Positions 1,605 to 11,719 of a stretch of DNA of 64,000 bases are shown one piece after another (within the stretch, counting starts at the first letter, position 1; each line of letters opens with the position of its first letter). The stretch is taken from NCBI GenBank assembly GCA_016280955.1, contig JAEEHV010000015.1, positions 1-64,000 of the forward strand, given 5' to 3'. The notes beneath the pieces are model-generated. The model was not told the origin of the DNA. It searched no databases and saw only the letters and a program-made list of their open reading frames with translations. The position numbers and the translations under genes are program-made. This stretch comes from Candidatus Gastranaerophilales bacterium (lineage in GTDB: Bacteria > Cyanobacteriota > Vampirovibrionia > Gastranaerophilales > Gastranaerophilaceae).

Positions 1605-4600
1605 ATGAAGGTTTTGTTGTGCAATAATCAACCAATAAATATTAATTGTGTAAAAAATGTAAACTCACATTATTTAAGCAATCCTATAAAAGATACTTTT
1701 TATAAATCAAATGTTTCTTTTAGAGGGAAAAATCCTTTTACACCTGACGAACAAACTGAAATTAATAGAGCCAACAAAAATGATGCCCCGTCAAGAGCAA
1801 AATTAGCAGAACTTAAAGCAAAGGGATTAAATATCAAAGACGCACTTGCATGTTTGAATCTTAATAACCCACTAGAAGTCGAAGAGTATATCGAATTAAC
1901 AAACAATAATAATGATTTAGACACCTTAGATAAAATCGGTTTAATTGCTTATGAAATAAATGATACAGAAAGGTATAAACATTTATGTAAATTGGGGCTG
2001 GAAAAATATGAAGCACTTTTGGCAACAAAACTCGGTTTAAATGACAATGAGATTAACACTTATTTTGATAAAAAAAATAAGGGAATTGAACTGGATATAC
2101 AAGAAGATGAGTTAATGTTTTGTATAAAAAACGGGGTTAATAATGATGAACAATTCACAAGATTTGCACAACTTAAAAACCGTAAAAGAAGTTTTCAGAA
2201 CGAAACCGTAAGAAAAAAGGGAGATGTACAACCGTATCCGATAGAATATATCACCCATTGCATAAAAGAAGGAAAAACTGATTCCGACATCGAAAGAGAA
2301 GACAGGCTTATTGAACTTATGGACTATAAGTTTACTAACGAAATGCTGGCTATAATATTAAATTTATCAATTGAAGATTATAAGAAGTTTTTACAAAATT
2401 TCAGTGATATTAAAAATGTAAAAGTTGCATTAAAATTTGCAAAATTTACAGATGAACAACGTATAAGGTTCAAAAAACTATTAGATAAAAAATATGATGA
2501 GGACAGTGCACTAACTCTTGCCATACTGACGGATAAACAGATTGAAAAATTTGAAACACTTGTTAAAAATGGTAAAAATGCAAGATTTGCATATTGGCTT
2601 GCAACATTTACGGAAGAACGGCAAGAAAGATATGACAAACTGATTAATGAGGGTTTGGATAATATGCCTGCATTATACCTCTCAGGATTAACAGAAGAAC
2701 AGTATAACAGATATAAAACACTTTTGAACAAACATAAGGACGAAGGCAACGCTGCAATACTTTCAACCCTAACAGAAGAGCAAAGCGAAAAATACATAAA
2801 ACTCAGAGATGAGGGAGTAAGTTCAGAGATTGCCACGGAATTGGTAAAATTAACAGAAGAACAATATAAAAGATATAAATGTATTAAGAACAATGGTGTA
2901 GACAAACGTACTATACTGGATATTGTAAGGTTAAAAGAACAAGAATACATAAGATATAAACGATTTATTAAAGATGGTGAAGATAAATCATACGCTTACA
3001 GTTTTTCAAAGTTTTCTGAACTTGAATATGAAAAATATAAAAACCTTGTAAAAAAAGGCATCGATAAATTAATTGCAATAGAACTGGCTGTTTTAACAGA
3101 GGAACAAATTGAAAGATATTTATTATACATTAACGAAGGAGAAACTTGCTATAATGCACTAAATATTGCAAAATTAACAAATGAACAATATAAAGCATAC
3201 CAATCACTTCTAAAAGAATTTGTAAATGAAAGTGCTGCAATAAATATTGCAAAACTTTCCGCCGAACAATACGAAAGGTTCAGAACTCTTATTATGAATG
3301 GAACAGATGACCATACCGCTCAAAAGATAGCAAGATTAACAAAAGATCAATATGAAATATATAAAATATTTTTAAATGAATCAGAGGTTAGCAATCTTGC
3401 TTTAGACCTTGCAAAATTAACGGAGGAACAACGTGAAAGATACAAAATTTTAGTCAGTAAAGGTGAAGATAATTATAATGCAATTAAGTTTTCAAAATTA
3501 ACTAATAATCAGTATAAAAGGTACAAAAACCTGATTAAAATTGGTAAAAATGAATTTGATGCCTATGATTTAGCTTGTCTAACAGAAGAACAGTACAACC
3601 TATTTCAAGCACGTATAAATAACGGATTTGACATAGAGACTGCGATTCATATTGCCCAATTAACAGAAGAACAGGGGAATAGATATATAGAACTTGTAAA
3701 AAGTGGTGAAGACAAATCTTTTGCATACCTTGTTGCAACACTAACAGATGAACTGTATGAAAGATACAAAAAAATCCCAATACAAATTTCTGATATACAG
3801 GCAATTGCATTAGCAAAGACTACAAATCTTACTTCTGTTACCCCTGAATTAATAGAAAAACTTCCTGAAGATTTTTGGTATTTGACATCTATGGGCTGTG
3901 AAAAAGAAGCGAGTGAGATTATACATAAAGCAATTGAATCAATGCTTTTAAGAGAAGAGAATAATGATTTTGTATTATCGCCGTTAAGAAATATAGAAAT
4001 CAGAACTCCGTTGGTAAATTATAGCAGTAATTACTCGTACAACCAAAATAACGGAGATTTTAGTCTTTCAGGAACCCAGTCTTTTTCTGTCAATCTGTCT
4101 CAGGGTTATATTAGTCAAAAACCTTTGTTAGTGATAAAAGATAAAAATTCTTCTAATCAATATATTTCATATAACGGGGCAATAGCTCAAGTTAAAGAGA
4201 TAAACGAGCACGATTCCGAGCAATTTAGAATTTGGGGAAATTTATCTCCGCAAAAACAGTCGAAAATTTTATCCAAAGCGGCTGATGAGTTTATTTTCAA
4301 TATATTTGATGAGGAAGGGAATTGTATTATCGGGCAAAATTCACCAAAATTTAATACAAAAGAAAAAACTGATAGTGAAATAGAACAATATTATGCTCAA
4401 AAACTTTTAGAACTGAAAAACCGAAATGAATTAACACCACAAAACATTTTAAAATTAATGCCCAAAAATTGTATGCTGACAATCAGCCCATATATCCAGG
4501 GTGGAAATATTCTTTATGCAATTGTTACGGAATGGTTCTCAAAAAACGGTAACAGATGGCAAATGGAAATACATTCTCAGGATTTAAAATATAATAATGA

Positions 4601-4991
4601 TGAAAAATGGATTTTCAGATTGCATAAAGCTACAAATGACGGTAACAAACATTATTTCAAATTTGCAGAAAATGAAAACGGTTATGATTTTAATGGTGAG
4701 TTCAATGGTGAAGATGCCCACATAAAAATCAATACTCCGCTGGAAGATAATAATTTATTAAATAATGTAGCATTTCAGGCAATAATTACATTAATAAGCG
4801 CAAAATTATGCAAGGATTTTGCAATCAACAAAGTTGCCGAAAAAATAGGTGTAACAGTCGAAGAAAATAATTCTTTTGCAACAATGGGTAACATAGTTAA
4901 GCATTGTCTGAAAAATGTAAAAGATTTTGCAAATAATAAAGATCAAATTACAAAAATGAGAGTTGCACTCGGTAAAATCAGACTTGTATAG
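1605..4991 (+). CDS. Giant alpha-solenoid repeat protein (18 x ~28-aa LTEEQ repeats)
   Basis: A 1128-residue protein of unknown function. After an N-terminal segment containing NVSFRGKNPFT, residues about 250-750 hold 18 helical repeats of about 28 residues. The consensus is LTEEQ-x2-RYK-x-L-x3-G-x-D-x3-A-x3-A, which suggests a helix-turn-helix solenoid for protein binding. The C-terminal ~370 residues are non-repetitive with beta-rich segments and resemble no family I recognise. There is no signal peptide, transmembrane helix or catalytic motif. No Shine-Dalgarno sequence precedes the ATG. The gene stands alone between two copies of a ~100-base direct repeat, with a convergent MORN-like gene downstream. 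It could be a surface, effector or scaffold protein; location and partner are unknown. Confidence 0.85.
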   Translation: MKVLLCNNQPININCVKNVNSHYLSNPIKDTFYKSNVSFRGKNPFTPDEQTEINRANKNDAPSRAKLAELKAKGLNIKDALACLNLNNPLEVEEYIELTNNNNDLDTLDKIGLIAYEINDTERYKHLCKLGLEKYEALLATKLGLNDNEINTYFDKKNKGIELDIQEDELMFCIKNGVNNDEQFTRFAQLKNRKRSFQNETVRKKGDVQPYPIEYITHCIKEGKTDSDIEREDRLIELMDYKFTNEMLAIILNLSIEDYKKFLQNFSDIKNVKVALKFAKFTDEQRIRFKKLLDKKYDEDSALTLAILTDKQIEKFETLVKNGKNARFAYWLATFTEERQERYDKLINEGLDNMPALYLSGLTEEQYNRYKTLLNKHKDEGNAAILSTLTEEQSEKYIKLRDEGVSSEIATELVKLTEEQYKRYKCIKNNGVDKRTILDIVRLKEQEYIRYKRFIKDGEDKSYAYSFSKFSELEYEKYKNLVKKGIDKLIAIELAVLTEEQIERYLLYINEGETCYNALNIAKLTNEQYKAYQSLLKEFVNESAAINIAKLSAEQYERFRTLIMNGTDDHTAQKIARLTKDQYEIYKIFLNESEVSNLALDLAKLTEEQRERYKILVSKGEDNYNAIKFSKLTNNQYKRYKNLIKIGKNEFDAYDLACLTEEQYNLFQARINNGFDIETAIHIAQLTEEQGNRYIELVKSGEDKSFAYLVATLTDELYERYKKIPIQISDIQAIALAKTTNLTSVTPELIEKLPEDFWYLTSMGCEKEASEIIHKAIESMLLREENNDFVLSPLRNIEIRTPLVNYSSNYSYNQNNGDFSLSGTQSFSVNLSQGYISQKPLLVIKDKNSSNQYISYNGAIAQVKEINEHDSEQFRIWGNLSPQKQSKILSKAADEFIFNIFDEEGNCIIGQNSPKFNTKEKTDSEIEQYYAQKLLELKNRNELTPQNILKLMPKNCMLTISPYIQGGNILYAIVTEWFSKNGNRWQMEIHSQDLKYNNDEKWIFRLHKATNDGNKHYFKFAENENGYDFNGEFNGEDAHIKINTPLEDNNLLNNVAFQAIITLISAKLCKDFAINKVAEKIGVTVEENNSFATMGNIVKHCLKNVKDFANNKDQITKMRVALGKIRLV

Positions 4992-9469: not shown

Positions 9470-9498
9470 TTGACAAAATTTTTTATTTTGTGTTTTAT
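9470..9498 (+). promoter_or_regulatory. Promoter of the cysteine leader
   Basis: Perfect TTGACA (-35, 9470-9475), a 17-base spacer and TTTTAT (-10, 9493-9498). Transcription should start at about 9505-9506, exactly at the ATG of the leader peptide, so the mini-ORF may be translated from a leaderless message. Confidence 0.5.
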
Positions 9499-9505
9499 TA
9501 ATAGT

Positions 9506-9562
9506 ATGAAGAATTCATTTGTAAACAATTTAATCTGTTGCTGCTGTAAGTCTTGTTGCTAA
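9506..9562 (+). CDS. Cysteine-rich leader peptide (candidate attenuator uORF)
   Basis: An 18-codon ORF too short for the ORF track: MKNSFVNNLICCCCKSCC, stop. Six of its last eight residues are Cys, encoded by TGT or TGC. The stop codon falls inside the 3' arm of the first leader hairpin, as in classical amino-acid attenuators where ribosome position selects the RNA fold. There is no Shine-Dalgarno sequence, but the predicted transcription start coincides with the ATG. Inference: scarcity of charged tRNA-Cys would stall ribosomes on these codons and favour antitermination into the downstream gene. Confidence 0.65.
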   Translation: MKNSFVNNLICCCCKSCC

Positions 9563-9643
9563 GAACTTACTTATTATTTTGCGTGCAGATTTTCAGATAG
9601 AAATATTATTTAGGTTCTTAAATGTTTTTTAAGAACCTTTTTT
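9546..9643 (+). promoter_or_regulatory. Three-way transcription attenuator (pause hairpin / antiterminator / terminator)
   Basis: Hairpin 1:2 (9546-9570) has a nine-pair stem with one bulged A and loop GTTGCT, and it covers the last Cys codons. Antiterminator 2:3 pairs TAAGAACTTA (9560-9569) with TAGGTTCTTA (9611-9620), ten pairs including one G-U. Terminator 3:4 (9612-9638) has an 11-bp stem and U6 (9638-9643). Strands 2 and 3 each take part in two exclusive structures, the textbook attenuator layout. The terminator ends only four bases before the Shine-Dalgarno GGAG of the 9660 gene. Confidence 0.7.
9612..9643 (+). terminator. Intrinsic terminator inside the leader
   Basis: AGGTTCTTAAA pairs with TTTAAGAACCT around a five-base loop and is followed by six T. 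It lies 237 bases after the FtsW/RodA stop and 16 bases before the next ATG, so it suits attenuation better than simple termination of the upstream operon. Confidence 0.8.
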
Positions 9644-9659
9644 AACGGAGAAATTACAA

Positions 9660-11090
9660 ATGAGAATAAATAAAATTGACAATACCCTTAATTTTAATGC
9701 TGCTATGGGCGGATTATCAAAAGCATTATATACACTGAGTAACAATGATATGCTTAATGCCTCTTTCGTGGATGTTTTTGCGATGGACACACCAAGAACA
9801 ATAGTCGAAACAAAAAACAGAGGTAAGCAGGCAGGAATAGAGATGGGATTCAGAGAATACACCGGAACTTTTATTGCTGAATTTTCAGCCGCTCTTTTTG
9901 CAGTTATCGCTTCTAAATTTATCGCAAAAAAGATAAGACCTGATATAAAAGTTAATTCAGGTTCATGGATTACAAATAACGGATTGGATGTATTCTCTGA
10001 GATATATAATAAATCCGATAAAACTCCTGAAAGTTATGTCGAAAACATTCTTAATTCAATGTCAGGGCTTAAAGGAAAAGAAACAAAAGAATTTTCTAAA
10101 ATTGATAAAGAAAAAACAAAGCCTATTATTGAAAAACTTACAAATCTGATAACGGATAAAACCTCTGATAAAACTAAGAATAAAAAAGTTTTGGGAGAAG
10201 TTCAGGACGAAATAATAAATCTGCTTGGGGCTGATAATAACATCACGATTAAAGGCAGCAAAAACTCGTTATCAGCTAACTTAACTCATACATTAAGAGA
10301 TATCGTCGATTCGGGTAAAAATATTTTCTTTGAGGGAGTAAATAAAAAAGAGCCGGGTGAAATTATATCTAAGCTTAAGAAAATGAATAATTTAAGAATA
10401 GGCATTGCAATACCTTTATCAATGCTTCTTGCAATAACAAACCAGTATTTAAACAGATATTTAACAAAAAAACGAACAGGTATTGATAACTTTGTAGGCG
10501 AAAATAATTATGCCCAAAACGTTGCGTTTAAACACGAAAAGAAATCAGAAAAAGGGCTGTGGTGGAAAAAATTATTGTCCGCCGGAATTTTTGTTCTGAT
10601 GCTTTCTAAAGTTATGGGGGTAAAAAAGCCTGCTGATTTCATCAAAAAACTGGAATTTGACGGACCTGTTACAAGCGGTAATACTATCAAAACAGTCTAT
10701 GGAACATTGATTCTAGGCAGAATTTTTGCATCCAAAGATTCAACGGAATTAAGAGAAACTAACGTAAGAGATTATTTAGGTTTCTTAAATTGGCTTGTAT
10801 TGGGCGGTTTTGTCGCTAAGGGAGTCGGGCAAATACTTGACCAAAAGCAAGAAAAATTGTTTAATATATCTAACAAAGGTACGGGAATTAAGCATTGGCT
10901 TAAAGATGTTTCTTTAAAATCTCAAAAAGAAATTCTTGCACATGGCGGGAATGTCAAATCAAACCTGAGAAAACTGAATTTTGCTCAGATGTCAGGAATT
11001 GCATACAGTACAATAATGCTTGGGGTACTGCTTCCGAAATTAAATATTTGGATGACGAGGAGAGATAAAGGGAATAAAAACCACAATTAA
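9660..11090 (+). CDS. Cysteine-free multi-pass membrane protein, unknown function
   Basis: A 476-residue protein I cannot assign. Hydrophobic stretches lie near residues 73-92, 242-262, 305-322, 377-395 and 442-462, separated by Lys-rich hydrophilic segments, so an inner-membrane protein is likely. The N-terminus (INKIDNTLNFNAAMGG) has the short Phe-containing lead seen in several unassigned proteins of this window. The whole protein contains no cysteine, which is notable because its leader encodes a run of cysteines and an attenuator. Shine-Dalgarno GGAG lies nine bases before the ATG. An SGNH hydrolase gene follows within 12 bases and is probably cotranscribed. Transport or a stress response linked to cysteine is a guess, not a reading. 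Confidence 0.8.
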   Translation: MRINKIDNTLNFNAAMGGLSKALYTLSNNDMLNASFVDVFAMDTPRTIVETKNRGKQAGIEMGFREYTGTFIAEFSAALFAVIASKFIAKKIRPDIKVNSGSWITNNGLDVFSEIYNKSDKTPESYVENILNSMSGLKGKETKEFSKIDKEKTKPIIEKLTNLITDKTSDKTKNKKVLGEVQDEIINLLGADNNITIKGSKNSLSANLTHTLRDIVDSGKNIFFEGVNKKEPGEIISKLKKMNNLRIGIAIPLSMLLAITNQYLNRYLTKKRTGIDNFVGENNYAQNVAFKHEKKSEKGLWWKKLLSAGIFVLMLSKVMGVKKPADFIKKLEFDGPVTSGNTIKTVYGTLILGRIFASKDSTELRETNVRDYLGFLNWLVLGGFVAKGVGQILDQKQEKLFNISNKGTGIKHWLKDVSLKSQKEILAHGGNVKSNLRKLNFAQMSGIAYSTIMLGVLLPKLNIWMTRRDKGNKNHN

Positions 11091-11101
11091 AGGCGATGAG
11101 T

Positions 11102-11719
11102 ATGAAAAAGATTTTATGCTATGGGGATTCAAATACATTCGGTTATAATCCTGCTGACAATTCAAGGTTTGATGAACATACAAGATGGACTGCTCTTTTG
11201 CAGGAAAATTTAGGCAGCGATTTTAAAATAATAGAAGAAGGTATGTGTGACAGAACCGGCATTGCTAATAATGATAAAGGTTTTGACTTCTCGGCTCAAA
11301 GACACTTTCCTAAAATAATAACAAAAATTAAAGATATTGACTTGTTAATTCTTGCAATAGGTACAAATGATTTGCAGTTCAAGTACGATTTAACTATTCA
11401 TCAGTTTGAAAACGGGTTGGAAAAATTAATCGTTACAGCAAAAAATAATGTACAAAGAATCATTTTAATACCACCGGTCGTATTAAACGATAATATTTTA
11501 GAAGGAAGTTTTAACTTTCAGTTTAACAGTACAAGTATTTCCAAATCTAAAAAGGTAGGAAAAATTTACAGAAAATTAAGCAATCTTTATTGTTTAGACT
11601 ATTTTGACCTGAATGAATTTGTAAAACCGTCAAATACTGATGGTTTACATTATGACAGCGAAGGACATAATATTATTTCAACAAAACTGAGTGAATATAT
11701 TAAGAGTATATTTGCCTGA
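11102..11719 (+). CDS. SGNH/GDSL-family hydrolase (arylesterase-like)
   Basis: Esterase or lipase of the SGNH fold. Block I is CYGDSNTFGYN, carrying the nucleophile Ser near residue 9. Block III is AIGTNDLQFKY, and block V is DGLHYDSEGH with the catalytic Asp and His. The length, 205 residues, is usual for the family. No signal peptide is present, so it should be cytoplasmic. Of two ATGs, the one at 11102 lies eight bases after AAAGG, while the one at 11096 is only two bases away, so 11102 is preferred. It starts 11 bases after the cysteine-free membrane protein and probably shares its attenuated transcript. The substrate is unknown. Confidence 0.85.
   Translation: MKKILCYGDSNTFGYNPADNSRFDEHTRWTALLQENLGSDFKIIEEGMCDRTGIANNDKGFDFSAQRHFPKIITKIKDIDLLILAIGTNDLQFKYDLTIHQFENGLEKLIVTAKNNVQRIILIPPVVLNDNILEGSFNFQFNSTSISKSKKVGKIYRKLSNLYCLDYFDLNEFVKPSNTDGLHYDSEGHNIISTKLSEYIKSIFA

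Follow-up and report, generated by a model that had tools for sequence, protein, structure and literature searches.

A putative cysteine-reading transcription attenuator before a membrane-protein gene family of Gastranaerophilales, and its serine-codon version on a paralogue

The window, that is, the whole 64,000-nucleotide stretch of DNA analysed here, comes from the 2.78 Mb genome of an uncultured gut relative of cyanobacteria. The usable labels among the relatives of this genome are Candidatus Gastranaerophilales and Melainabacteria. In the window, a promoter is followed by a short leader ORF, a hairpin formed by strands 1 and 2 (1:2), a terminator hairpin formed by strands 3 and 4 (3:4), a 476-codon gene, and the gene of an SGNH-type hydrolase:

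9470..9498, + strand: sigma-70-type promoter called from the sequence (-35 TTGACA 9470-9475, 17-nt spacer, -10 TTTTAT 9493-9498)
9506..9562, + strand: leader ORF MKNSFVNNLICCCCKSCC, ATG 9506-9508, stop TAA 9560-9562; kept in about 50 loci
9536..9547, + strand: putative regulatory Cys codons UGU UGC UGC UGU; the run is kept while TGT and TGC alternate
9546..9551, + strand: strand 1 (GUAAGU), pairing with 9565-9570; predicted to sequester strand 2 when no ribosome is present
9554-9559, + strand: two further Cys codons of the leader, read from the sequence
9560..9568, + strand: strand 2 (UAAGAACUU), starting at the leader stop codon; predicted antiterminator partner of strand 3
9612..9621, + strand: strand 3 (AGGUUCUUAA), common to the antiterminator and the terminator
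9612..9643, + strand: intrinsic terminator (3:4 hairpin 9612-9638, strand 4 at 9629-9638, U run 9638-9643)
9660..11090, + strand: controlled gene, encoding a predicted membrane protein of 476 aa that lacks Cys and belongs to a Gastranaerophilales family
11096..11719, + strand: SGNH/GDSL-type hydrolase gene, 5 nt downstream, a probable operon partner; it adjoins the controlled gene in 27 Cys-leader loci

An earlier, sequence-only reading of this DNA had placed a mini-ORF under a good promoter, with the predicted transcription start at the leader ATG. The -35 and -10 elements and the leader coordinates bear out the promoter. Because the leader ATG lies 7 nt past the -10 element, a leaderless transcript is likely, in agreement with the predicted start. 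The distance from the -10 element to the leader ATG, measured on the sequence with a putative start, is 6-7 nt in most Cys leaders, and a promoter was called at 43 of the 49 Cys loci. The leader mRNA is probably leaderless, with its ATG near +1. A run of four TGY codons has 40 matches in the genome; of those inspected, none but the window leader belongs to a mini-ORF that starts with ATG and is followed directly by a terminator and a gene. The genome also has a cysK-cysE operon that carries no such leader, and no second poly-Cys leader was found among the sites inspected, including the one before cysK-cysE.

The three helices 1:2, 2:3 and 3:4 are mutually exclusive. The 1:2 hairpin (9546-9570) has a predicted energy of -6.0 kcal/mol, and the terminator hairpin has 11 bp and -12.0 kcal/mol. 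The claim that the leader stop falls in a hairpin whose strand can instead pair with the 5' arm of the terminator was confirmed by the coordinates and by folding; the pairing had been put at ten bases, and helix 2:3 (9560-9568 with 9612-9620) is in fact 9 bp long, with one G-U pair and -9.1 kcal/mol. When folded alone, the segment 9505-9660 was moderately better than its shuffles (z -1.95). Since this single-sequence result is modest, it is conservation and not folding energy that excludes chance. A search of Rfam, T-box included, gave no match near a gathering score.

A protein-alignment scan of 84,980 genomes yielded 80 loci. Close orthologues retain the promoter, the leader, the Cys run, both hairpins and their spacing; two of these loci are stored in reverse and appear unrelated in the raw alignment. 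The Cys run is present in nearly every orthologous locus with enough upstream sequence, about 50 loci in Candidatus Gastranaerophilales. The sequence-only reading had proposed a search of related genomes for a Cys mini-ORF and the same three strands upstream of orthologues, and the arrangement recurs in about 50 loci; orthologues that keep the terminator and lose the Cys codons or the 2:3 pairing, which would have spoken against the element, did not turn out to be the pattern. Outside the Cys run the leader peptide drifts (MKYSFVENLICCCCKSCC, MINLNLVKVQICCCKFLCLRT, MNTIFKNVCCCCQSL, MPKSYSVKNNMCCCCKVPKGFYGNLCC), and the number and spacing of the Cys residues vary among leaders. The CCCC run itself is written in eight TGT/TGC codings, indicating synonymous turnover. 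Among the exceptions, L081 has a stop codon just before the leader Cys codons, about 150 nt 5' of the gene, with the rest of the attenuator intact; L075 has a weaker Cys run; L101 has no leader; L083 and L086 have a weak or missing terminator; and L059 has too little upstream sequence for its leader to be judged.

Several features of the neighbourhood were recorded along the way. A regulator of the DtxR/iron-dependent-repressor type with a Cys-rich C-terminal tail lies upstream of the leader in 21 loci (L057, L054, L060, L065, L069, L071 and others) and is adjoined in several of them by a biotin synthase-like gene. Genes resembling the tRNA thiouridylase MnmA lie near the leader in six other loci. 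The products of all three kinds of neighbour use sulfur or metals. Three public genomes labelled Acinetobacter, Clostridiaceae and Brachyspira (L047, L100 and L103) carry the genes and leaders of this Gastranaerophilales lineage, and these labels are probably wrong.

A covariance model of the cysteine element matched 44 of 286 genomes of the order. Among the 30 best-scoring loci retrieved, 27 precede the membrane protein and three precede an operon of cysteine-synthesis type (L215, L218 and L225, in genomes G218, G252 and G130). Of the weak matches (E above about 1e-5), most did not stand upstream of related genes. The PLP enzyme of the operon belongs to the Cys/Met-metabolism family PF01053 of Pfam (E below 1e-150 in both complete copies), and its best NCBIfam match, below the cut-off of that model, is cystathionine gamma-lyase/homocysteine desulfhydrase. 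An enzyme of the cystathionine beta-synthase (CBS)/cysteine synthase type comes next in L215 and L225, where the stored DNA reaches that far, and a SAM methyltransferase is first in the operon of L218. Gene sets with members of the cystathionine gamma-lyase and CBS types are of the sort used to make cysteine from methionine. The presence of the element before such an operon independently supports a predicted role in cysteine sensing, and a link between the target and the metabolism of the sensed amino acid is seen for these three operons. At L225 the leader is preceded by the DtxR-type regulator, Cys-rich tail included, that also stands beside the membrane-protein version, so that the same locus can have either of two targets under a single cysteine switch.

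Among loci with 40-45% identity to the window protein, most have leaders with a serine run (MMNLFTVKSNTSSSSCKYSGTCMNFGV, MIKLYATTSSSSSKSTLSGLGGFSV, MRNLYVANVNSSSSSSSSSSGCRCGTSFCV). The genome of the window itself has a serine leader, MKNLYFTVSSSSSSSSSSGCYRGLSDFDM, before a paralogue on contig C40, and the orthologues of this paralogue have a serine leader in 18 of the 18 relatives examined. The layout is that of the Cys leaders: the AAG codon behind the run opens strand 1, strands 2 and 3 resemble CGGGACUU and AAGUCCCG, respectively, and a terminator stands at the end. The serine runs are written mostly as UCC and UCA. UCC accounts for 91 of 180 leader serine codons, whereas its share in the long ORFs of these loci is 8%; the share of AGC/AGU is 7% in the leaders and 29% in those ORFs. 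Ribosomes of B. subtilis cells starved for serine slow down at UCN and not at AGC/AGU codons (PMC3862929), and therefore the codons of the Ser leaders are those expected to be sensitive. With a covariance model of the serine element, all 46 strong loci examined lay before the serine-leader paralogue, and none of these 46 matches was seen before serine-biosynthesis genes. On the tree, the proteins behind Ser leaders fall into a single group (support 97). The tree suggests that Ser leaders arose within the Cys clade; the AU test did not reject the alternative (p 0.35).

The pairing of strands 2 and 3 was examined by swapping strands between loci. The mean 2:3 duplex energy was -12.9 kcal/mol for strands of the same locus versus -9.1 kcal/mol for swapped strands, and none of 20,000 permutations reached the observed value, as was also the case for the Cys and Ser sets separately. 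Terminators for this test, found in 75 of the 77 leaders, were picked without regard to strand 2. Two variants were set aside, one with split terminator arms, in which the arms were cut short, and one with a fixed register, which favours own pairs. Positions 3 to 8 of strands 2 and 3 are paired almost always in 51 distinct sets, and at several of them A-U, G-C and C-G interchange. The 2:3 pairing stands at 96.7% for the Cys set (29 loci) and 93.0% for the Ser set (23 loci), and two alignments agree on this. Changes on both sides of a pair were found in 2:3 and in 3:4 for both leader types; in 3:4 they occur at 6 of 10 pairs in Cys loci and 7 of 9 in Ser loci. Because the shuffle control on pair counts ignores relatedness, it is the swap test and the both-sided changes that carry the argument. 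Helix 1:2 is paired in 98.9% of cells in 29 loci and is nearly invariant, with both-sided changes at two pairs, and thus gives little covariation evidence.

The spacing of the leader is consistent with control by a stalled ribosome. Counted from the first base of the final codon of the run, strand 2 lies at a median distance of 14 nt in both Cys and Ser leaders, which puts it just outside a ribosome whose A site holds that codon. In a constrained folding model of the window, the probability of 2:3 pairing was 0.98 with a stalled ribosome versus 0.17 without a ribosome. The modelled means were 0.77 for Cys and 0.79 for Ser leaders with a stalled ribosome, and 0.30 and 0.24 without a ribosome, where 2:3 is low because 1:2 competes. 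The near-zero value with a ribosome on strand 2 is imposed by the constraint and has no evidential value. By geometry and constrained folding, a stalled ribosome is predicted to cover strand 1 and free strand 2.

We propose that the element is a ribosome-mediated transcription attenuator sensing charged tRNA-Cys, a reading to which we give a probability of about 0.92. RNA polymerase would start at or near the leader ATG with a ribosome behind it. When Cys-tRNA is scarce, the ribosome would stall in the Cys run and cover strand 1, and strand 2, about 14 nt downstream of the stall, would be free to pair with strand 3 before strand 4 has been transcribed. Helix 2:3, once formed, would block the terminator, and the membrane-protein gene would be transcribed. 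When Cys-tRNA is plentiful, a ribosome at the stop codon would mask strand 2, the 3:4 hairpin would form, and transcription would end. If there is no translation, 1:2 would form and 3:4 would likewise be left free. We infer that such stalling and readthrough take place in cells.

The controlled proteins are poor in the amino acid that their own leader encodes. The protein in the window has 0 Cys among its 476 residues, as the sequence-only reading had stated; that reading had also expected a cysteine-free target under starvation control, and 51 of the 75 Cys-leader proteins are free of Cys. In a set of 159 distinct family proteins, the 75 Cys-leader proteins have a mean of 0.45 Cys and 7.3% Ser, and the 84 Ser-leader proteins have a mean of 2.9 Cys and 4.4% Ser. 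Of the 20 amino acids, Cys and Ser differ most between the two sets, in opposite directions, and Thr, Gly and Met show no difference. One Cys-leader protein (L067) has 8 Cys in the sequence as assembled. Since the Ser-leader proteins are one group on the tree, this comparison is one evolutionary contrast and not 159. Biosynthetic enzymes are known to show low cognate bias for these two amino acids (PMC4209129).

Searches of Pfam and NCBIfam with the 476-aa protein returned no family, and searches by PDB sequence, PDB fold and viral folds returned nothing credible; the fold searches used an AlphaFold2 model of fair quality (mean pLDDT 83.6, pTM 0.81). The protein is largely helical and has about five segments of weak hydrophobicity, from which we infer a membrane protein. 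Older family paralogues without a leader are present throughout the order, and, with the exception of L142, no convincing homopolymer leader with a terminator was found before the older paralogues searched (a tandem pair on contig C93 and order-level relatives).

In L142, a distant member in another family of the order, a leader-like ORF MLSFTSKLNAQQQQQQAATAQKAAQFCCLRFCNKFK, Gln-rich and Cys-containing, lies about 223 nt upstream of the gene at 2182, on the reverse strand. It was seen once, and a strong hairpin there could pair with it; it is perhaps a third attenuator, reading Gln or Cys. Elsewhere in the window, positions 1605-4991 encode a 1128-aa protein with many degenerate LTEEQxxRYxxL-type repeats and an N-terminal VSFRG motif. 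An N-terminal motif of the F[KRN][GA] type (NFNA, SFKG, NFKG) is also found at 9660-9720 of the window and in the paralogues L090, L127 and L139. This motif is common to the membrane-protein family and the unrelated 1128-aa protein, and it is a possible sorting signal of the lineage.

Could the hairpin be an ordinary constitutive or leaky terminator, with the mini-ORF there by chance? The modest single-sequence z-score and the other TGY runs in the genome would fit such a view, but about 50 loci keep the ORF, the Cys run and the 2:3 and 3:4 pairings with compensatory changes, and the design is kept with serine on the paralogue; we regard chance as having next to no probability. It is also quite improbable that the poly-Cys peptide acts, with the RNA switch unchanged, as a nascent-chain sensor of metals or redox state in which metal binding or disulfides alter stalling, in the manner of the uORFs with Cys motifs that respond to copper. 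Cys clusters do bind metals, and a Cys-tailed DtxR-type regulator lies upstream in 21 loci; yet serine, the residue found in this position in the paralogue, would not bind metal that way, the number and spacing of Cys vary and the remaining peptide is not conserved, and the element also stands before Cys-synthesis genes.

The proposed attenuation of the gene in response to charged tRNA-Cys leaves two views of what the targets do. It is most likely, at roughly even odds, that the targets of the Cys and Ser leaders help to acquire Cys (and Ser). An equally weighty alternative is that the attenuator is real and the membrane targets serve another starvation response, such as envelope remodelling or general stress, the low Cys or Ser content only permitting their synthesis. 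The lack of a known fold or family for the target, the SGNH hydrolase as operon partner, the cysK-cysE operon of the genome, and the older paralogues without such a leader all fit this alternative. The element, however, serves a Cys-synthesis operon elsewhere, once with the same upstream neighbour, so that the targets look interchangeable, and the division between the paralogues is by Cys and Ser, two neighbours in metabolism. The full reading, to which we give somewhat less than an even chance, is that a pair of paralogous membrane proteins with no structural precedent acquires Cys and Ser, each under the control of and purged of its own amino acid, that specificity changed once by rewriting of leader codons, and that one member of the pair has the first ribosome-mediated attenuator to read serine.

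The trp and his attenuators of E. coli likewise have a leader ORF in which one regulatory codon is repeated, along with helices 1:2, 2:3 and 3:4, an intrinsic terminator, and a stop codon near strand 2. Compared with them, the element described here reads Cys (Ser in the paralogue), its mRNA is often probably leaderless, it occurs in Melainabacteria, and its target is a membrane protein without known function instead of a biosynthetic operon. The proposal of a trp/his-type layout with cysteine is supported by the comparison of loci (Cys runs, 2:3 and 3:4 pairing, Cys-synthesis operons), and every testable structural feature of trp/his-type attenuators is found in the predicted RNA. Poly-Cys leaders had been taken as known in Actinobacteria. 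This holds for mycobacteria, where polycysteine short ORFs are reported to be leaderless and to show cysteine-responsive attenuation (PMC9031893, PMC9094748); the present leaders resemble these in being poly-Cys short ORFs that are probably leaderless, and differ in that lineage and targets are unrelated and a serine version exists. Poly-Cys leaders were predicted in PMC1262725 without a conserved terminator hairpin in Mycobacterium, whereas here terminator and antiterminator are conserved. Such leaders are not confined to Actinobacteria: the Rhodobacterales have the predicted motif uORFC-8-2 before cysS, a Cys-codon uORF with an intrinsic terminator for which Cys-tRNA attenuation was proposed (PMC8632094), and which differs from the present element in its two tandem Cys codons, its cysteinyl-tRNA synthetase target, and its sequence and lineage. 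In codon choice the UCC/UCA-rich and AGY-poor Ser leaders resemble sinR of B. subtilis, which is sensitive at UCN codons, but the sinR codons lie inside the repressor gene itself, with no leader or terminator (PMC3862929). No report of a serine attenuator of the trp/his kind was found in the literature searched, which leaves out most subscription papers. Cysteine attenuators are thus already known, and what is new here is the same predicted switch in serine codons on a paralogue.

The most surprising feature is this pair of paralogues with a changed sensed amino acid. It appears that an attenuator can switch the amino acid that it senses with its RNA architecture kept, and that a single genome can hold both states. 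Along with the leader, the amino-acid make-up of the controlled protein has shifted, which is a clear example of cognate bias (compare PMC4209129). A lineage-wide membrane-protein family of uncultured gut bacteria thereby gains a testable role in the supply of cysteine and serine.
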